Shown in pieces: positions 41,796 through 51,724 of a stretch of 64,000 bases of DNA (positions within the stretch are counted from its first letter, which is position 1; every line of letters begins with the position of its first letter). Source of the stretch: Agrobacterium salinitolerans (GTDB lineage: Bacteria; Pseudomonadota; Alphaproteobacteria; Rhizobiales; Rhizobiaceae); NCBI RefSeq assembly GCF_002008225.1, contig NZ_MRDH01000016.1, positions 62,240-126,239 of the forward strand, given 5' to 3'. Below the pieces are notes generated by a model. That model was not told the DNA's origin. It made no database searches and saw only the letters and a program-made list of their open reading frames with translations. A program made the translations under genes and the position numbers.

Positions 41796-42782
41796 TCATG
41801 CGCGATAAACGGCCGCTCCACCCGTCATACCGGCGCCGGCGGCGGTCAAAAGCAGGATTTCGCCTTCCGCGAGAGGCCTTTCGGCATTGGTGACGGAGAG
41901 CGAAAGCGGAATGGTTGCGGCGGAAGAATTGCCGAAGCTTTCTATGGTGCGGACCGTCTTTTGCCTGTCAATGCCGAGATTGCCGCAGACGGCGTCGAAC
42001 ATACGGGCATTGGCCTGATGCGGCACGAAACGGTCGATATCGACTGCCGTCATTCCGACTTCATGCAACACCCTTTGCGCGGTCTCGGTCATCAGCGTCA
42101 CGGCACGGGAGAAAACCTCGCGGCCGTCACGCATTGTCATCAGCGCCTCCTCAGTGGATGTATCGGCTGAGAAGGGCTGGCTACTGCCCCCCGCCGCTAT
42201 CTGGATCAGATCGTAACCGCCGCCATCCGCAACGAGATCGGCCGACAAAAGCCCACGCTGCGCCTGGCGGCAGGGCTTGAGTACGACAGCGCCGGCGGCA
42301 TCGGCGAACAGGACAGCGCTTGCCCTTTCCGCCGGATTGATACGACGGCTCAATATATTGGCGGCAACGACGAGCACGGCGCGGCCGTGGGTGCGGACAA
42401 AGCCATCCGCAAGCGTGAGCGCATAAAGAAAGCCGGAACAGGCCCCGGCAAGATCGATCGTGCCGGATCGGGTAAGGCCCAGCCTGTGTGCGAGCAGCGG
42501 CGCCGAGGGCGGCAGAAGATGATCCGGCGTGGAAGTCGCAAGCAGCGTCAATGCGATGTCATCGGAGGCGATTTCGGCGTCTTCCAGCGCCATGCGACCG
42601 GCTCTCGCCGCAAGGCCGCTCAGCGTGTCGCCCTCTTGCGCCCAATAACGCGTGCGGATGCCGGTGCGCCGCTCGATCCAGCCGGCTTCCAGCCCGAGAC
42701 TGGTCTCAATCTCGGCATTTTCAACACATCTTGACGGAACGGCATGACCAAAACCGGCCATGCGGGAAGAACGGGTCTGCAT
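41796..42782 (-). CDS. bioZ: BioZ, beta-ketoacyl-ACP synthase III-like enzyme of biotin synthesis
   Basis: The protein has 328 residues with the FabH fold. The catalytic triad is present: C115 (AGACSGF), H255 (VPHQANAR) and N285 (SFGNSSAAT). In Agrobacterium, Brucella and Mesorhizobium the last gene of bioBFDAZ makes the pimeloyl precursor by condensing a glutaryl thioester with malonyl-ACP. The operon position supports this over housekeeping FabH. The ATG at 42780-42782 was chosen; a 55-residue in-frame extension runs into bioA. It begins 56 bases after the bioA stop. Confidence 0.9.
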
Positions 42783-42838
42783 TGTCAGGACTTTCGGAGA
42801 CAGTTCTGGAACAGGCTGAAAATGGCCGCACCCTGTTT

Positions 42839-44134
42839 TCACGCGATGCCGAGCGCGCGCGATTTTAGCGGAGCGGTTTCGGTGACGATCCCGGCCACCT
42901 CGTCGATGGCGCCAAAGACGCTGCTTAAATCTTCCGCCGTCGAACAATAGGGCGGCATCAGGTAAAGCACATTGCCGAGGGGCCGGATAACGAACCCGCG
43001 CTTACGGAACAATTGCCGCATGCGCGGCCCCGCCTCGGCGAGATACCCGCCGGCGGGCGTCACGAGATCGAGGGCCGCGATGGTCCCCATTTGCCGAATA
43101 CCGGTAAAACGCCGGTCATCTGCAAATCGCTGGAGATTGTCGTGCAGAACCTGTTGCAATTGCCCCATGCGTTGAAGCACGGGCTCATCCCGCCAGACCT
43201 GAAGATTGGCGACAGCCGCAGCACAGGCGATCGGATTAGCCGTATAGGAACTGGAATGGAAGAAGGTCTTGCGGCGATCCGTCGAAAAATGCGCATCGAA
43301 AATCTCCGCACTGCACAACGTTGCCGCCAGCGGCAAGGAGCCGCCGGTCAGGCCCTTGGAGGTACACAGAATATCCGGGGCAATGCCGGCCTGTTCGCAG
43401 GCGAACATGGTTCCGGTTCTGCCCCAGCCCGTCATCACCTCGTCTGCAATGACGAGGCAGCCATGGCGTTCGGCGATCTGTTTCAGCCCGGCCAGAACAT
43501 CCGCGCCGTAAATCTTCATGCCGCCCGCCCCGAGCACCAGCGGCTCGACCAACAGGGCGGCGATACGGCCTGAACGGCAGAAGTTTTCGAACATGTCCAG
43601 CGTGTGCTGTTCGTTGCCCGCTTCCGGAAAAGCCAGCCGGTCGACGCCGAAGAGCAGCGGTTCGTAAGCGACATTGAAGACACCGCGCTCACCGGTCGAC
43701 ATGGTGCCGATAGTGTCGCCGTGATAGCCGTGTTCCATTACCACGATACGGTCGCGCTTTTCTCCGCGATTATGGAAATATCCCAGCGCCATTTTCAGCG
43801 CTACCTCAACCGCAGTCGAGCCGCTATCGGAATAAAACACATGGTTTAGCCCGGCGGGCGCAAGCTCGATCAGCCCGCGCGCCAGCGTTTCGGCGGGTTC
43901 ATGGGAGAACTCGGCGAAAATGACCTGATCGAAGGCCTCTGTCGCAGCGCGGATGGCCGCCATGATCGCCGGGTGCCGGTGCCCGTGGGTGATGACCCAC
44001 CAGGAGGAAATGGCGTCGAACAGGCGATTGCCGTCCTCATCGACGAGAAATGCGCCTTCCGCAGAAACCACGCGTTTCATTGGCGGTTCCAGCCCATGCT
44101 GGGTGAAGGGATGCCAGATCGGGGAACGGCTCAT
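42839..44134 (-). CDS. bioA: Adenosylmethionine-8-amino-7-oxononanoate aminotransferase (DAPA synthase)
   Basis: The protein has 431 residues, the standard BioA length. It starts with [20 protein letters not shown]. The class III aminotransferase motif [19 protein letters not shown] and the PLP lysine in [14 protein letters not shown] are in place. It converts KAPA to DAPA with S-adenosylmethionine as amino donor. The start overlaps the bioD stop (ATGA, 44131-44134). Confidence 0.96.
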
Positions 44135-44769
44135 GCCGGCGTCTCCAGAAAATCAGCGAGATTGAAGTGTCGCGCAAAGGCCCGATGCAGCGCCTCCGAT
44201 GTCATCTCCGGCAGGCGCGGCAGACGTCCAAGCGGGCGAACGGCGCCTATATTGGCGATGACGCGCTCATTTTCCCGGTTCTCGTCTCCGATGAAAACCA
44301 CGCCCTGCACGGGAATGGCACGGTGCCGCAACGCCTCGAGCGAGAGCAGCGTGTGGTTGATGGTGCCCAACGACGTCCTTGCGCATAACACAAGCGGAAT
44401 TTGCCAGCGGGCGAAGATATCGGCGAAGAGCACCGTGTCCGTCAGCGGCACCAGAAGCCCGCCCGCCCCCTCGATCACCAGCGGTCCATCCGTTTGCGGC
44501 GGCAGCAGCAGCGCGGGATCGATCGTTATATTCTCGCCGCGTGCCGACAGATGCGGCGAAGCCGGCATTTTGAGGCGATAGGCCTCCGGTAGAATACGCC
44601 CGCGCGGCACGCCACCCAGCCGTTCCACCGTCTCGCTGTCTGTTTCTTCCTCCAGCCCGGATTGCACGGGTTTCCAGTAATATGCCTGCAGGGCCTGGGT
44701 CAGCGCTGCGGAAAAAACCGTCTTGCCGATGCCCGTGTCGGTGCCGGAGATGACGAAACGAGGGCTCAT
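44131..44769 (-). CDS. bioD: Dethiobiotin synthetase
   Basis: The protein has 212 residues. The P-loop [20 protein letters not shown] is at the N-terminus, with [12 protein letters not shown] in the middle and [20 protein letters not shown] later. It closes the ureido ring of dethiobiotin using ATP and CO2. Both ends overlap neighbouring genes by 4 bp within bioBFDA. Confidence 0.95.
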
Positions 44770-45911
44770 CTCCGCTCCTCCGCAAGCGAAAGGGCGAGCA
44801 GCCCGATCATATTGGCGATCTGGCTTTCATCCACATTGAGCGTGATGGCGATGCGCAGGCGCGCCGTGCCCTCCGGCACCGTCGGCGGGCGGATCGCCCG
44901 CACATCGAAACCACCCTCCCGCAAATGCGCGGCGATACGCAGCGAACGGGCATTGTCGCCTATCATCACCGGTAATATCTGCGAGCCGCTGGGCGCAACG
45001 CCGAGCCGGGAGCGAAGCTCCTCGCCGGCAAAGTTTACCAGTTCCGCCAGCCGCAAGCGCCGCCATGGTTCATCGTCGACGATGCGCAGGGCTTCCCGAA
45101 CCGCAGCAGCCATCAGCGGCGAAGGTGCGGTCGAATAGATGAAACCGCGGGCGCGGTTGACGAGATAATCGGCGAGAACCGCCGGCAGGCTCAAAAGCGC
45201 ACCGGAAAGACCGAGCGCCTTGCCGCAGGTGTGCAACGCCACCAAATTGTCCCGGCCTTCCAGCTCCGCGGCAAGGCCACGCCCGCCGGGGCCGAAAACA
45301 CCGGTGGCATGAGCCTCGTCGACGACAAGGAAGCCCTCATATTTCCCGGCAAGATCAGCCAGGGCCGAAAGCGGCGCACGGTCGCCATCCATGGAATAAA
45401 GGCTTTCGACGGCGATCCACGGTCGGCCCCGGCCACCCTCTTGCCGCCAGCGGATTATTTCCCGTTCGAATGCCTCGACCTGATTATGCGGCACCGCGAT
45501 CGCCTTCGCCTTGCCGGCCACGATACCGTCATGGACGCTGGCATGGATCAGGGCGTCGTGAAGAACGAGGTCTTCCCGCAGCGGCAATGTGGAGAACAGT
45601 GCGACATTAGCGGTAAAACCGCTGCCGAAATAGATCGCTTTTTCCGCCCCGAAAAGCACCGCCGCTTCCGCTTCCAGCGCCTCATGTTCGGGATGGTTGC
45701 CGCGCAGCAGCCGCGAGCCGCCGGCCCCCACCGGCACGCCCCTTCCGATGGCGTCGGCGATTGCCGCCTTCAGCCGGGGTGAATCGGCAAGCCCCAGATA
45801 GTCGTTGGAGGTGAAGTCGACCCCCTGTTGAGGAGCAAGCGCGCGCAGCCGCGATTTGCGCTCCAGGCCGGCAAGCTTCGCCTCGTAGGGGGAGAACGCC
45901 GCAAGGTTCAC
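44766..45911 (-). CDS. bioF: 8-amino-7-oxononanoate synthase (KAPA synthase)
   Basis: The protein has 381 residues. The alpha-oxoamine synthase landmarks are [34 protein letters not shown] and the PLP-lysine segment [15 protein letters not shown]. It condenses pimeloyl-thioester with alanine. The GTG at 45911 was preferred because it overlaps the bioB stop (GTGA) and stands six bases from GGGAGG; the GTG at 45917 touches that ribosome site. Confidence 0.94.
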
Positions 45912-46942
45912 CGGCACCCTCCCGCCTCCCCAGACTGCAATTCCGTGGACTGCAATTCCATCGGCCTCAGGCCCAGACGGCGGAAAAGCGCCGTGTCGTG
46001 GTCCTCACCCGGATTATCCGCCGTCAGCAGCGTCTCGCCGATGAAGATGGAGTTGGCGCCGGCCAGGAAACAGAGCGCCTGTGTCTCATCGCTCATCTCC
46101 GTGCGCCCGGCCGAAAGCCGCACATGCGAATGCGGCATGAGGATACGCGCCAGCGCGATGGTGCGGACGAAATCGATGGGATCGACGGGATCGGCATTGG
46201 CAAGCTTCGATCCGGGGATCGGGATCAGCATGTTGATCGGCACGCTTTCCGGCGGAACCGGTAGATTGGCGAGCGTCACCAGCATCGAGATCCGGTCTTC
46301 CACCGTTTCCCCCATGCCGAGAATGCCGCCGGCGCAGACCTTGATGCCGGCATCGCGGACATTGGCCAGCGTTTCCAGCCGGTCCTCGAAGGTGCGGGTG
46401 GTGATGATCTCAGAATAAAACCGCTCGGAAGTGTCGACGTTGTGGTTGTAGTAGTCGAGACCGGCATCGGCTAGCCGTTCGGATTGCTCCGGCGTCAGCA
46501 TGCCGAGCGTCATGCAGGTTTCCATGCCGAGCGCCTTCACGCCCTCGACCATGGCCACCACGGCCTCCATGTCGCGCTCCTTGGGATTGCGCCAGGCAGC
46601 ACCCATGCAATAACGCGTCGCGCCGCCTTCCTTCGCCTTGCGCGCCTCAGCCAGCACCCGCTCCACTTCCATGAGTTTGGAGGCCTTGAGGCCTGTCGGG
46701 TTGCGGGCGGACTGGCTGCAATAGCTGCAATCCTCCGGGCAGCCGCCGGTCTTGATGGATAAAAGCCGGCTCATCTGGATGGCGTTCGGATCGAAATGAC
46801 AGCGATGCACCTGCTGGGCGCGGAACAGAAGATCGTTAAACGGCAAATTATAGATAATTATGGCTTCCTCAAGCGACGAACGATCTCCAGGACTCGCAAT
46901 TGGAGCTAGATTTCTGTCAATTTGCGTCACGATCTGGCCCAT
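45908..46942 (-). CDS. bioB: Biotin synthase (radical SAM)
   Basis: The protein has 344 residues. The radical-SAM motif [13 protein letters not shown] is followed by [13 protein letters not shown] and [12 protein letters not shown], the usual BioB landmarks with ligands for both iron-sulphur clusters. It inserts sulphur into dethiobiotin. The ATG at 46940-46942 has GAGGGAAAGATC upstream. A BioR-type box lies inside the first 35 codons. A short glycine-cysteine tail follows the conserved domain. It is the first gene of bioBFDAZ. Confidence 0.95.
46848..46857. promoter_or_regulatory. BioR-type box TTATAGATAA within the bioB reading frame
   Basis: This is an exact match to the known alphaproteobacterial BioR (GntR family) recognition sequence TTATAGATAA/TTATCTATAA. 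It lies 86-95 bases downstream of the assigned bioB start. It is therefore an intragenic operator candidate, unless bioB actually starts later, which the protein alignment pattern does not support. Confidence 0.6.
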
Positions 46943-46965
46943 CTGTCGATCTTTCCCTCAAAATA

Positions 46966-46992
46966 AATAGATAGAAGTTCGTTTTATCTATT
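46966..46992. promoter_or_regulatory. BioR-like inverted repeat in the bioB promoter
   Basis: AATAGATA (46966-46973) and TATCTATT (46985-46992) are perfect arms (9 bp if extended one base on each side) with TATCTAT cores like the BioR box. The distal arm overlaps the proposed -10 hexamer of bioB. Repression by biotin-loaded BioR would be expected; no bioR gene is in the window. Confidence 0.55.
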
Positions 46993-47014
46993 TTTCTCGA
47001 ACCCCGTTTTGCAA
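46985..47014 (-). promoter_or_regulatory. Candidate sigma-70 promoter of bioBFDAZ
   Basis: On the minus strand TTGCAA (47009-47014) is separated by 18 bases from TAGATA (46985-46990). Transcription would start about 35 bases before the bioB ATG. Confidence 0.45.
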
Positions 47015-47040: not shown

Positions 47041-47317
47041 ACAGGAGAGATGGGCGGCAGATGCGGGAGCAGGATCGTTGGGGCCATGGGGTTATCGCCG
47101 GCTGGGATTCGAACAGACGGGACGCTCCGCCCTCGGCGGACAGGGGCGACCCTATCCGCTCGATCCTCTTCAATGTCGCGCAACGGGAGAATAGGCCGCA
47201 AGCTACGCCAGTACGCTTGCCACCCGCGCTGCGCGGGAATGCGACATGACGGCTTTCGTCAATGGTTATGAGGTATATCCATTGACAAATCACAGGAGTG
47301 CAGCTTTTCTATCCCGC
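47041..47317. other. Intergenic region between bioB and the copper operon
   Basis: No gene is supported here. ORFs on both strands have no family pattern. A GGGATTCGAAC run near 47103 resembles a tRNA T-loop on the minus strand, but the flanking bases do not pair into a stem. TTGACA at 47282-47287 could be the -35 box of the copper operon; the matching -10 (TTTTCT) is weak. Confidence 0.5.
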
Positions 47318-47731
47318 ATGCGTGAGATGTTGCGAGCATCGAAATTAATGGCCCTGTTGTTCAGACTGGTGATGATCCTGTCACTGGCGGGCTATAGCGT
47401 TTCCACTGTCGATGCCGCAATGCATCCTGCCGAAGCCGGTGGAATGCAGCACGATCAGTCCGCCATGATCGACCACGGCGCGATGATGGACCATGGCGGT
47501 TCAACCATGATGTCCGATAGTCATGATCACAACGACATGACCGCCGAGCATGATAGCGGCGCCCAAAAAACCGCAAAGCCCCAATGCTGCGGCGATTTCT
47601 GTCTCGGCATGGCGGTCCTGATCAGCCACGACACCACTGGCAGACCCGTCGTCAACAGCATCCGCTCGTTCCTCGATGACAGCAAGGCGCTGGGCCAGAC
47701 TCCGCTGCTTCACCGTCCCCCGAATATCTGA
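47318..47731 (+). CDS. Small exported Met/His-rich protein heading the copper operon
   Basis: The protein has 137 residues from the ATG at 47318; an ATG at 47327 is an alternative. A hydrophobic signal segment (LMALLFRLVMILSLAGYSV) is followed by a stretch rich in Met and His (GGMQHDQSAMIDHGAMMDHG, SDSHDHNDM) and then QCCGDFCLGMAVL. Such spacing suits Cu(I)/Cu(II) binding. I do not recognise the family. Position ahead of TolC-like, multicopper oxidase and CusF genes suggests a periplasmic copper-binding role (inference). Confidence 0.65.
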   Translation: MREMLRASKLMALLFRLVMILSLAGYSVSTVDAAMHPAEAGGMQHDQSAMIDHGAMMDHGGSTMMSDSHDHNDMTAEHDSGAQKTAKPQCCGDFCLGMAVLISHDTTGRPVVNSIRSFLDDSKALGQTPLLHRPPNI

Positions 47732-47818
47732 ACAGGCAAAGCCCGCCTTTGGGCAATGACCGTGCGTGAGCGGCTTTAGCGCCGTCGCGCCGTTGAATCT
47801 CCTGTTCGGAAAATAACC

Positions 47819-48049
47819 ATGAACCCAATTTACATTGTGGTTGCAGTGCCCCTGCTTTTGGGCGGCTGCACAGCCACATCCCTGATGAACGAGACCGCCT
47901 CCTATGACGACGCGGCAAACCCGTCGCTCGGCGCCGCCCCTATCCGCTATCAGACCCCGGTCGCGGGTTACGCGCACCGCACGCCGGTGGATCCGAAGCC
48001 CTGGCGGAACCAGAACGATGCGCAGGCTCCGAAAGGAGACGCATCATGA
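47819..48049 (+). CDS. Small predicted lipoprotein of the copper operon
   Basis: The protein has 76 residues. The lipobox LLLGGC places the lipidated cysteine at residue 17. The rest is short and proline-rich, with no domain. The stop overlaps the start of the TolC-like gene (ATGA, 48046-48049), so the two are translated together. Its function is unknown. It may assist the outer-membrane protein. Confidence 0.7.
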   Translation: MNPIYIVVAVPLLLGGCTATSLMNETASYDDAANPSLGAAPIRYQTPVAGYAHRTPVDPKPWRNQNDAQAPKGDAS

Positions 48050-49521
48050 CGATACTTACCTTCAAACTGGGCGCGAAACTCGCGGCCACCCTTTGCCTGC
48101 CGTTTCTTCTTGGCAGCTGTGTCACGGCCGCCCAGTATGCGTCGCGCGACGCCGGTTTCACCAATGTTTCGGCCAGGACATCCGAGGCGACGGGAAAACA
48201 GGCGGTCTGGGTGCAGAACCGGACCGAGGCGCAGGCGACGCAGGCCCGCGTTAAATCGCTGATGGCAGAGAGCAAGACCCTTGATGTCGAGACGGCGGTG
48301 CAGGTTGCGCTGCTGAACAACAAAGGCCTTCAGGCGGCCTATGCCGATCTCGGCGAATCCGCCGCCACCGCATGGCAATCGACCATGCTGATCAATCCGC
48401 GGATCGGCATCGGGCTGACGGGGATCGGCACCCCAGGTCTCAGGGCCTACAAGGCGATCGAAGGTGTCGTCGTCACCAATATTCTGGCGCTCGCCACCCT
48501 CAAGAAAAATGTCGAGATCGCCGATACCGGTTTCCGTAAGGCGCAGCTTGGCGCCGCGCTGAAGACGCTGCAACTGGCGTCTGATACCCGCCGCGCCTGG
48601 ATCACCGCAGTGGCGGCATGGGAAAATGTCGGCCAGCTGGCGCAGGCACAGACCGCGGCGGATGCCGCCTCGGAACTTGCCGTCAAGCTTGGGGAAGCGG
48701 GTTCGCTCAACAAGGAAGGCCAAGCCCGCGAGCAGGTCTTTTACGCCGAACTGACGGGCCAGATCGCCAAGGCGCGGCTTGAGGCCCGCCTTGCCAAGGA
48801 GGAACTGACGCGGCTGATGGGACTGTGGGGCGCCGACATCGAATACACCATTCCCAACCGCCTGCCCCCGCTTCCGAAGGCGCTTGCCAAACGGGACATG
48901 ATCGAGGCCGAGGCGCTGCAGCGCCGCGTGGACCTGCAGATGACCAGGCTCGATTTGGAGGCAACCGCCCGATCGTTCAAGCTCACCGAAGCCACCCGAT
49001 ATGTGACCGATCTCGAAATCCGCTCCGGCTTCGAGACCGAACGCGAGCTGGAGGATGGCGAAAAACACAAGCAGACAACCGGCAATGCAGAGCTGGAATT
49101 CGTCATTCCGATCTTCGATTCCGGTCAGGCACGCATGCGGGAATCCGAACTCGCCTATATGCGTGCGGCGAACCTGCTGGCGGAAAAGGCGGTCAATGTC
49201 CGCTCGGAAGCCCGCTCCGCCTATCAGGCCTATCGCTCAAATTACGACATCGCCCGACACTACCGCAACAGCGTGGTGCCGCTGCGCACCAAAATCGAGG
49301 AGCAGTCGCTGCTGACCTATAATGGCATGATCACCAACACCTTCGAGCTTCTGGCCGACAGCCGGGAAAAGGTCAGTTCCAACCTGCTGGCCATCAATGC
49401 CAAACGCGACTTCTGGCTCGCGGAGGCCGGCCTCGCTCCCGCCATCTACGGGGGAGGTACGGGTGCTGCGGCAGGTGCGGAGACCGAGGTTGCCGCCGCT
49501 GGCGGCGGTGGCGGACACTGA
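48046..49521 (+). CDS. TolC-family outer-membrane efflux protein
   Basis: The protein has 491 residues. A signal with possible lipobox (LCLPFLLGSC) precedes two OEP repeats rich in coiled-coil helices: KTLDVETAVQVALLNNKGLQ, LEARLAKEELTRLMGLWGAD, and ELEFVIPIFDSGQARMRESE in the second repeat. It forms a channel through the outer membrane. No RND pump or membrane-fusion protein gene is beside it, which is unusual. The C-terminus is glycine/alanine-rich. Confidence 0.88.
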   Translation: MTILTFKLGAKLAATLCLPFLLGSCVTAAQYASRDAGFTNVSARTSEATGKQAVWVQNRTEAQATQARVKSLMAESKTLDVETAVQVALLNNKGLQAAYADLGESAATAWQSTMLINPRIGIGLTGIGTPGLRAYKAIEGVVVTNILALATLKKNVEIADTGFRKAQLGAALKTLQLASDTRRAWITAVAAWENVGQLAQAQTAADAASELAVKLGEAGSLNKEGQAREQVFYAELTGQIAKARLEARLAKEELTRLMGLWGADIEYTIPNRLPPLPKALAKRDMIEAEALQRRVDLQMTRLDLEATARSFKLTEATRYVTDLEIRSGFETERELEDGEKHKQTTGNAELEFVIPIFDSGQARMRESELAYMRAANLLAEKAVNVRSEARSAYQAYRSNYDIARHYRNSVVPLRTKIEEQSLLTYNGMITNTFELLADSREKVSSNLLAINAKRDFWLAEAGLAPAIYGGGTGAAAGAETEVAAAGGGGGH

Positions 49522-49535
49522 GAAAGGAAATCACC

Positions 49536-50885
49536 ATGTTCAATAGAAGAAACTTTCTGGGTGTCGGCGCCGCCATGGTCTCCTCGGCGGCCTGGGCGAA
49601 AACATCCAACACCAGCCTGCCGGAAGCGGCCGTGATGGAAACGGCCGCGACCCAGGCCCCGGTCAAGCCCACTACCGGCCCCGATTACAACCCTGTGGTC
49701 ACGTTGAACGGCTGGACCCTGCCCTTCCGGATGAACAACGGCGTCAAGGAATTCCACCTTGTCGCCGAGCCGGTGGAGCGCGAAATGGCGGAGGGCATGA
49801 CCGCCCGTCTCTGGGGTTATAACGGTCAGTCGCCCGGCCCGACCATCGAGGCCGTCGAAGGCGACCGGGTGCGTATTTTCGTCACCAACAAGCTGCCGGA
49901 ACATACGACGATCCACTGGCACGGCATGATCCTGCCGTCCGGCATGGATGGGGTGGGCGGCCTGTCGCAGCCGCATATTCCTGTCGGCAAGACCTTCGTC
50001 TACGAGTTCGACCTCGTGAAATCGGGCACCTTCATGTACCACCCGCATTCGGACGAGATGGTGCAGATGGCGATGGGCATGATGGGTTTCTTCGTTGTCC
50101 ATCCGAAGGACCCCACCTTCATGCCGGTAGACCGCGATTTCGTGTTCCTCCTCAACGCCTTCGACATCAACCCCGGCGCCTCCGTTCCCAAGATCATGAC
50201 GATGACGGATTTCAACCTGTGGGCATGGAACAGCAGGGTGTTTCCGGGCATCGATCCGCTGGTGGTTTCCAAGGACGACCGGGTGCGCGTGCGCGTCGGC
50301 AACCTGACCATGACCAACCATCCGATCCACATGCATGGTTACGATTTCGAGGTGACCTGCACGGATGGCGGCTGGGTGCGGCCCGAGGCGCGCTGGCCGG
50401 AGGTTAGCATCGACATTCCCGTCGGCGCCATGCGCGCCTACGAATTCGACGCCAAATATGTCGGCGACTGGGCGATCCATTGCCACAAGTCGCACCATAC
50501 GATGAACGCCATGGGACATGACGTCCCGACCTTCATCGGCGTCGACAAGAAGGCTGTCGCAGAGAAAATCCGCAAGGTGCGGCCGGAATATATGCCGATG
50601 GGCACCGCCGGCATGGCCGATATGGGCGCGATGGAAATGGAAATCCCTGAAAATACCGTACCCATGATGACGGGTTGGGGGCCGCACGGCCCGATCGAAA
50701 TGGGCGGCATGTTCTCCGTGGTGAAGGTCCGCGAAGGCATCTCCGCGGGCGATTACTCAGATCCCGGCTGGTACGAAAATCCGCCCGGAACCCAGGCCTG
50801 GGAATGGACCGGCACGTTGCCGGATACGACCAAGACCAATGACCCCAAAACGCAGATCACGCCGAAACCGATGAAACACGGCTGA
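49536..50885 (+). CDS. Multicopper oxidase (CopA/CueO-like laccase fold)
   Basis: The protein has 449 residues. A Tat signal is seen at the start (NRRNFLGVGAAMVSSAAWA). Copper ligand motifs are complete: HWHGMI, MYHPHSDEM, HPIHMHGYDFEV and the C-terminal WAIHCHKSHHTMNAMGH that holds the T1 Cys-His pair and T2/T3 histidines. It should oxidise Cu(I) in the periplasm. Methionine-rich runs lie after the last motif (MPMGTAGMADMGAMEMEI). It follows the TolC-like gene after 14 bases with GAAAGGAAATC. Confidence 0.93.
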   Translation: MFNRRNFLGVGAAMVSSAAWAKTSNTSLPEAAVMETAATQAPVKPTTGPDYNPVVTLNGWTLPFRMNNGVKEFHLVAEPVEREMAEGMTARLWGYNGQSPGPTIEAVEGDRVRIFVTNKLPEHTTIHWHGMILPSGMDGVGGLSQPHIPVGKTFVYEFDLVKSGTFMYHPHSDEMVQMAMGMMGFFVVHPKDPTFMPVDRDFVFLLNAFDINPGASVPKIMTMTDFNLWAWNSRVFPGIDPLVVSKDDRVRVRVGNLTMTNHPIHMHGYDFEVTCTDGGWVRPEARWPEVSIDIPVGAMRAYEFDAKYVGDWAIHCHKSHHTMNAMGHDVPTFIGVDKKAVAEKIRKVRPEYMPMGTAGMADMGAMEMEIPENTVPMMTGWGPHGPIEMGGMFSVVKVREGISAGDYSDPGWYENPPGTQAWEWTGTLPDTTKTNDPKTQITPKPMKHG

Positions 50886-50939
50886 TCGCGCAGCCACACA
50901 CACCCACAAGATCCCTCACCAAAATCAAGGAAATATGGA

Positions 50940-51416
50940 ATGACCAAACTGAAAATTGCACTGCTTCTTGCCGCTCTCGCCACGCCCGCCCTTGCATCGG
51001 GCACTCATGGCGGCGGCCATGAAGCGATGGCGATCGGTGAACCGGGCGACAAGGCCAAGGTGACCCAGACCATTCAGGTGACGATGAAGGAAACGCCTGA
51101 TGGAAAGATGGTGTTCACGCCCACCAAATTCGAATTCAAAAAGGGCAAAACGGTTCGCTTCGCCGTGAAGAATGTCGGCGAACTGGACCATGAATTCATT
51201 CTCGACGAACAGAAGGCCAATCTGGAGCACAAGGCCGCCATGGAGAAGGCTCCGGAAATGGAGCACGACAATCCGAATGCGATCAGCCTCGCGCCCGGCG
51301 AAAGCGGCGAAATCATCTGGAAATTCACCAATGACGGCATGTTCGAATTCGCCTGCCTGAAGCCCGGACATTACGAGGCCGGCATGCGCGGCGATCTCAA
51401 AGTTTCTGCAAAGTAA
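50940..51416 (+). CDS. Periplasmic cupredoxin-domain copper protein
   Basis: The protein has 158 residues. A signal peptide (LKIALLLAALATPALA) precedes a cupredoxin domain. Type 1 copper ligands can be assigned as His in GELDHEFIL and Cys, His and Met in FACLKPGHYEAGM. HGGGHEAMAIGE near the mature N-terminus may add a metal site. It may carry electrons or copper for the oxidase encoded before it. The ribosome site AAGGAAATATGGA precedes the ATG. Confidence 0.9.
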   Translation: MTKLKIALLLAALATPALASGTHGGGHEAMAIGEPGDKAKVTQTIQVTMKETPDGKMVFTPTKFEFKKGKTVRFAVKNVGELDHEFILDEQKANLEHKAAMEKAPEMEHDNPNAISLAPGESGEIIWKFTNDGMFEFACLKPGHYEAGMRGDLKVSAK

Positions 51417-51439
51417 CCCGGCAACAAAGGAATCTGACC

Positions 51440-51724
51440 ATGAAGACCCTCGTAAAAATCGCCGTTGCAACGGCACTCCTGCTCACCGCTCCCCTCAGTG
51501 CATTCGCGGAAGAATTCACCAAGGGAACGGTCAAAAAGGTCGATACCGCAGCCAAGAAGGTCACCATCATCCATGAAGAACTGAAGAACCTCGACATGCC
51601 GGCCATGACGATGGTGTTTCGCGTCAAGGACGATGCGATCCTCGCCAAGCTCAAGGAAGGCGCCAATATCGAGTTCGTCGCCGAACGCGAAAACGGCAAG
51701 CTGGTCGTCGCCCAGGTGAAATAA
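51440..51724 (+). CDS. CusF-like periplasmic copper chaperone
   Basis: The protein has 94 residues with a 23-residue signal peptide. The OB-fold keeps H45, M56 and M58 of the CusF metal site (IIHEELKNLDMPAMTMVF). M53 stands where E. coli CusF has the Trp that stacks on Cu(I). It binds Cu(I)/Ag(I) in the periplasm. It is the last gene of the copper operon, 23 bases after the cupredoxin gene. Confidence 0.88.
   Translation: MKTLVKIAVATALLLTAPLSAFAEEFTKGTVKKVDTAAKKVTIIHEELKNLDMPAMTMVFRVKDDAILAKLKEGANIEFVAERENGKLVVAQVK

Follow-up and report, generated by a model that had tools for sequence, protein, structure and literature searches.

The window (the whole 64,000-nucleotide stretch of Agrobacterium salinitolerans DNA analysed here) carries on its minus strand a bioBFDAZ-like operon whose first gene, bioB, has its ATG at 46942-46940 (Table 1). 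The true start of the bioZ-like gene probably lies inside the listed ORF. Upstream of bioB, on the plus strand, the ORFs at 47246-51724 read as a cluster of copper-handling genes, with outer-membrane efflux, multicopper oxidase, cupredoxin and CusF-like members.

Table 1. Features of the biotin operon in the window; gene names ending in -like come from reading the translations.
Feature	Position	Strand	Basis
Putative -35 element, TTGCAA	47009..47014	-	CTTGCAAAA, conserved across the genus profile
O1a, degenerate operator at the promoter, AAATAGATAA, with 8 of 10 consensus letters	46984..46993	-	identical in 21/21 genus orthologs
O1b, the other degenerate operator at the promoter, CTATCTATTT	46965..46974	-	identical in 21/21 genus orthologs
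Putative ribosome-binding site GAGGGAAAG, 8 nt upstream of the bioB ATG	46951..46959	-	read from the sequence
bioB, biotin synthase, 344 aa	45908..46942	-	ORF; phmmer to E. coli BioB 1r30, E=1.5e-135
O2, intragenic BioR box TTATCTATAA	46848..46857	-	exact match to the published consensus TTATMKATAA
bioF-like ORF, next gene after bioB	44766..45917	-	ORF list
bioD-like ORF	44131..44769	-	ORF list
bioA-like ORF	42839..44134	-	ORF list
bioZ-like (ketoacyl-ACP synthase III-like) ORF	41796..42947	-	ORF list

The consensus of the biotin repressor BioR is quoted as TTATMKATAA (PMC4494728). The first-pass annotation had placed an exact BioR box within bioB, and pattern searches of the window and of the whole genome bear this out. 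The box, here called O2, spans nt 86-95 of bioB in the codon frame nTT-ATC-TAT-AAn, reads TTATCTATAA on the coding strand and TTATAGATAA on the plus strand, and forms the core of a 14-bp palindrome, AATTATAGATAATT, at 46846-46859. O2 is the only exact match in the window, where four sites with at most one mismatch were found against 0.84 expected (at least four in 2 of 100 shuffles). It is also the single copy of TTATAGATAA/TTATCTATAA in the 4,986,140-base (4.99 Mb) genome; the six remaining TTATMKATAA places are TTATCGATAA (five) and TTATATATAA (one). The gene that hosts O2 is itself a biotin gene. The Ile-Ile-Ile-Tyr run to which the annotation also drew attention is present at residues 28-31, but its first Ile is peculiar to this strain: codon 28 (46859-46861) is ATA here versus AAA (Lys) in 20 of 21 genus orthologs. 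By this codon comparison, the Ile-Ile-Ile run is half operator-driven and half a strain-specific Lys-to-Ile difference. The ATA codon also shortens, in the window strain, the longer palindrome of the genus.

BioR itself has one match in the genome, on another contig (G000:C37:1046675-1047331, E=7.4e-104), with GntR and FCD domains. In Paracoccus and Brucella, bioR is reported to be autoregulated; in the window genome, by contrast, a scan of 600 nt ahead of the bioR helix-turn-helix codons found no BioR box with two or fewer mismatches. Several other Rhizobiaceae loci have a GntR gene directly upstream of bioB. The presence of BioR was of no use as a predictor within the genus, as it was found in 39 of 39 genomes.

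The BioR/TTATMKATAA biotin regulon of Agrobacterium tumefaciens was reportedly described by Rodionov & Gelfand in 2006 and Feng et al. in 2013; the window genome shares with it the box, the operon and an orthologous regulator. An A. tumefaciens gel-shift oligonucleotide, bioB_at, is listed in the accessible part of PMC4554459. All 50 letters of this probe occur exactly in another locus of the genus (L022), in the bioB frame, where they encode 16 residues equivalent to codons 23-38 of the window's bioB. By this match the published probe is the segment homologous to O2 and is intragenic, and O2 is not new as a binding site. The first-pass annotation had missed this published status of the A. tumefaciens equivalent, as well as the promoter operators at 46965-46993. 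For the window strain, BioR binding to O2 is a prediction; the binding in print concerns the homologous A. tumefaciens probe.

The accessible part of PMC4554459 reports that Paracoccus BioR2 and BioR1 both shift the A. tumefaciens bioB probe, recalls that the A. tumefaciens and Brucella BioR proteins also bind it, describes two tandem BioR sites in the Brucella and Paracoccus bio operons, and states that the search for a BioR ligand met with no success. The same part labels bioB_at as bioBFDAZ promoter DNA and gives A. tumefaciens one palindrome there. The A. tumefaciens site is therefore treated as a promoter, whereas its equivalent in the window lies within the bioB coding sequence. The terms intragenic, loop and coding region are absent from PMC4554459, and its accessible part mentions neither a coding position, nor O1a/O1b, nor a spacing, a statement that covers this paper alone.

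Among the 39 genomes of the genus, 26 have a bioB match, comprising 21 close orthologs (89-100% identical) and five genes about 55% identical; O2 is exact in 21/21 of the close orthologs. We then counted 250 unique bioB loci by their O2 mismatches: 96 were exact, 13 had one mismatch, 29 had two and 112 had three or more. This set consists of 226 loci plus 24 added later; loci with an identical 330 nt upstream of the motif were counted once, four were dropped (L063, L283 and L305, with no usable motif or too short, and L313, short), and the five divergent bioB loci of the genus (L039-L043) stand outside it.

O2 is accompanied by boxes at the promoter. O1a and O1b, the latter 19 bp downstream of the former, depart from the consensus at 2-3 positions in the genus. 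The distance from O1a to O2, start to start, is 136 bp in the window and 135-137 bp in 21/21 close genus orthologs. The -10 of the bioB promoter, at the position that we infer for it, would overlap O1a; a sigma-70 scan found no consensus match in the bioB upstream region. Other Rhizobiaceae loci often have TTATAGATAA, or a variant differing from it at one base, at the place of O1a and a CTATCTATAA-like box 19 or 20 bp further downstream. In 99 of the 107 loci that have O2 at no more than one mismatch and an assignable O1, O1a is followed after 19 or 20 bp by a box with at most three mismatches to TTATCTATAA, although O1 was partly chosen by that same score.

Classically, whole-turn spacing at 60-180 bp points to a repressor that bridges two operators on the same face of the helix. 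There were 109 unique loci whose O2 had no more than one mismatch, and O1 was assignable under 200 bp in 107 of them; the other two, L235 and L330, carry an exact O2 with no assignable O1 in that range and stand outside the distance counts. The start-to-start O1-O2 distances were 104 (4 loci), 105 (1), 115 (1), 125 (1), 126 (2), 133 (1), 134 (23), 135 (16), 136 (20), 137 (1), 139 (1), 143 (1), 144 (2), 146 (6), 147 (7), 153 (2), 154 (1), 155 (15), 156 (1) and 177 bp (1), with O1 taken as the best-scoring element; this choice leaves room for misassignment and could bias O1 towards consistent positions, though it would not create a comb with 10.4-bp teeth. At 10.4 bp per turn, 102 of these 107 distances, which are not independent, fall within 0.2 turn of a whole number. 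On a bioB gene tree the distances resolve into a root state and 13 changes, and the 14 states gave phase zero with a best repeat of 10.40 bp and P=0.00055 (0.00034 in a repetition); the tree is a quick one on which parsimony breaks ties arbitrarily, the distances share ancestry, the repeat was scanned over 10.2-10.7 bp, and the null of uniform distances is a simple model. These distance counts and tests include the locus L156. With one value per distance class, including 139 bp and the four held-out classes described below, P was 0.00016.

By sequence, two operators lie at one promoter, with a spacing of integral turns apart from several exceptions: (i) one locus with an intact O2 (L250) has a distance of 139 bp; (ii) the states at 143-144 bp are 0.2-0.3 turn off phase; and (iii) the bioR-bioY pair described below lies at 150-152 bp. 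As a control, 28 loci with a two-mismatch O2 gave 14 states and P=0.07, with off-phase values of 121, 131, 138 and 142 bp; 20 of the 28 also lie within 0.2 turn, perhaps through ancestry, so that the control is graded rather than clean. A pattern search for O1-gap-O2, whose gap was too short for the 134-bp classes, hit 7 of 394 genomes, mostly at 114-bp pairs with both boxes upstream.

How might a box inside bioB act? The first-pass annotation had suggested a roadblock within the gene. On such a reading, BioR at O2 alone would halt elongating RNA polymerase within bioB and the upstream elements would serve as promoter only. Consistent with this, O2 is the only TTATAGATAA/TTATCTATAA copy in the genome and lies downstream of the putative promoter, and L235 and L330 have O2 without an assignable O1. 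However, a roadblock does not predict conserved tandem O1 boxes, nor does it require whole-turn O1-O2 spacing. A roadblock is therefore possible but unlikely, and it is not the best-supported reading, since O2 is paired with O1 at a mostly whole-turn spacing.

Two of the loci without an assignable O1 have unusual settings. L330 is a plasmid bioB of Methylobacteriaceae (Microvirga sp. VF16 pMVF16-1) with an exact O2, 89.6% identical to the query and perhaps transferred from Rhizobiaceae. L334 (Rhizobium gallicum pRgalIE4872a) is a bioB copy behind methylmalonyl-CoA mutase/epimerase genes; it has five mismatches at O2, and its protein reads ATYN there.

Does whole-turn spacing extend to biotin promoters that have both boxes upstream? 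Among the fetched loci without O2 at two or fewer mismatches, we collected exact boxes paired at distances of 30-200 bp, counting identical stretches once and setting aside re-fetched O1-O2 bioB copies (115, 139, 147 and 153-155 bp). Five classes emerged: 62-63 bp (2 loci, upstream of a bioY-like ORF and of bioB; 6.0 turns), 72-73 bp (8 loci, before bioB; 7.0 turns), 83 bp (5 loci, the one inspected having a bioY-like ORF and bioB downstream; 8.0 turns), 114 bp (7 loci, before bioB where seen, with L190 outside this check; 11.0 turns) and 150-152 bp (12 loci, beside bioR; 14.5 turns), bioY being named from its translation. The first four classes, all outside the fit, gave P=0.0003 (n=4), and all five together P=0.11 with the repeat fitted or 0.034 with the repeat fixed at 10.4. 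When all bioB-associated states were pooled, the observed value was reached in 0 of 50,000 simulations; with the 151-bp class added, P was 2e-5.

The 150-152 bp class, at 14.5 turns, contradicts a universal phase rule. The 13 of 39 genus genomes that lack a bioB match (G008, G009, G018-G024, G028, G030, G036 and G038; loci such as L349, L361, L362, L365, L187 and L188) are the same 13 that have two exact boxes 150-152 bp apart. One of these boxes directly follows the bioR stop, and in the 6 genomes inspected, out of 13, the other immediately precedes a bioY-like gene. The spacing of this pair is nearly fixed though the intervening sequence differs, half a turn out of the bioB phase. The comparison thus gives the phase rule good support at the promoters of bioB and bioY-bioB, and the rule fails at bioR-bioY. 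An idea tying off-phase spacing to the opposite biotin response of Paracoccus bioYB was dropped, as the bioY-bioB pairs (62-63 and 83 bp) are in phase. In the five genus genomes whose bioB is about 55% identical (L039-L043), two exact boxes lie 83 bp apart upstream, with a bioY-like ORF between the boxes and bioB in the one inspected (L039); this pattern suggests that their biotin operon has been replaced and is controlled by the same repressor.

The phasing could also be incidental. O1 and O2 could be two independent operators with no bridging between them, their spacing a by-product of ancestry and of a stable N-terminus of 27-28 codons. Indeed, 66 of 92 loci have 27-28 codons before the box (with start codons picked by rule), and PMC4554459, in which the word loop is absent, reports two tandem BioR sites in bio operons of Brucella and Paracoccus. 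Against this, the larger changes in O1-O2 distance are mostly of about 10, 20 or 30 bp, and some lineages carry them in the leader, while the 104-105 bp class has an N-terminus shortened by 10 codons to 18 before the box (rule-chosen starts again). The promoters with both boxes upstream, bioR-bioY excepted, add further whole-turn values. Independent operators are thus an improbable explanation, more so than a roadblock. We also compared leader length with N-terminal length for compensation, and rejected the comparison because the start-codon picks make their sum constant by construction.

In the genus orthologs, AAA-ATT-ATC-TAT-AAT shows no synonymous change (20/20 of those with Lys; 21/21 for the other four codons), and no other stretch of bioB has three or more near-invariant codons in a row (284 columns, 45 of them singly invariant). 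The comparison of codons in relatives that the first-pass annotation had proposed thus finds the box codons invariant in the genus while neighbouring codons drift. Synonymous conservation in a set picked for exact O2 would be circular and was left out of the evidence. When loci were instead chosen by their protein, [FILV]IY[NK], the box was exact in 96 of 98, and the other two differed at one base. The first O2 codon in 81 exact loci was ATT (69), TTT (9), GTT (2) or CTT (1), so that TT is fixed although the residue before Ile-Tyr may be Ile, Phe, Val or Leu. In xIYN loci without the box, x was K (27), T (9), A (5), N (2), R (2) or I (2).

Codon usage thus indicates that O2 is under selection as DNA, beyond the peptide that it encodes. 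Because the [FILV]IYN residue changes with TT fixed, and non-box residues occupy its place elsewhere, the operator has constrained the BioB protein; selection on both the DNA site and the protein, as the annotation had surmised, is supported. That the protein constrains the sequence by itself, with the box a by-product of a conserved IIYN peptide, is very improbable: Ile-Tyr and Pro-Phe-Asn-Asp around O2 are well conserved in BioB, but the sole long synonymous-invariant run of the gene sits at the box, TT is kept across I/F/V/L, the 96/98 count contradicts it, and loci without the box mostly have K, A, E, R or T before IY. An internal -10 promoter element or an RNA hairpin is barely credible, for although ATTATCTATAATTT contains TATAAT, no -35 is conserved upstream of O2 (profile of 75 O2-exact loci outside the genus), a scan that also missed the putative bioB promoter found no sigma-70-like site, and two such segments fold with a negligible -0.5 and -0.9 kcal/mol.

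We favour a mechanism in which BioR represses bioB through a short DNA loop between the promoter operator O1 and the coding-sequence operator O2, with a probability of about 0.65. O2, which matches the consensus, would be the strong half of a two-part switch by which BioR controls the bioBFDAZ operon. This GntR-family repressor, whose gene lies on another contig, would bind O2 about 125 bp downstream of the putative transcription start, predicted near 46978 on the minus strand, and would also occupy the weaker, degenerate tandem O1a/O1b, which overlap the putative promoter. Kept about 13 helical turns apart, O1 and O2 would lie on the same helix face, where an oligomeric BioR assembly could bridge them, loop the DNA and shut the promoter. 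Bridging of two sites by BioR is predicted by analogy with Atu1419 (see below), and it is the whole-turn spacing together with this precedent that favours O1-O2 looping over its rivals.

We lean slightly towards a broader reading, in which biotin synthesis in Rhizobiaceae and relatives would be controlled by BioR via helically phased looping. In a large group, the strong operator would have been built into bioB at a distance of 10 to 17 whole turns from its promoter partner, dictating four codons, and the protein would have yielded, with xIYN held to [I/F/V/L]IYN. The DNA-level selection on O2 and the O1-O2 pairing go beyond the accessible part of PMC4554459, in which the Agrobacterium site is treated like any other promoter box. 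Should the paired-operator model hold, a reporter construct that omits the bioB coding region would lack half of the switch, and biotin control could be tested as a loop that depends on spacing. If true, the bioB loci would also offer a natural series for reading helical phasing by comparative genomics, and a case of a protein sequence reshaped by an operator.

An auxiliary operator inside a structural gene has a classical counterpart. In the lac operon, the auxiliary operator O2 lies inside lacZ and acts with the promoter operator at a spacing of about 400 bp. The two systems are alike in having an operator within the first structural gene in addition to a promoter operator; they differ in that the lac repressor belongs to an unrelated family, the bioB spacing is 104-177 bp, and the BioB protein visibly yields to its operator.

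A closer relative of BioR is Atu1419 of A. fabrum, whose structure (6z74) is the third-best PDB sequence match of the genome's BioR (E=1.2e-11). According to the accessible part of PMC7797058, GntR regulators were held to be dimers before Atu1419, which is a tetrameric GntR/FCD (VanR) repressor of 10-bp palindromes. The same part reports electron micrographs of a DNA loop joining sites 190 bp apart, and another target with a perfect palindrome and, 109 bp from it, a degenerate one inside an ORF. Atu1419 and BioR are thus alike as FCD-type GntR regulators with 10-bp palindromes, a perfect and a degenerate site, and one site intragenic. They are unlike in pathway and box, and the tetramer and the loop have been seen for Atu1419, whereas BioR is known here from sequence. 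At bioB the strong operator is found within the gene and the weak operator at the promoter, which sets this operon apart from the Atu1419 arrangement.
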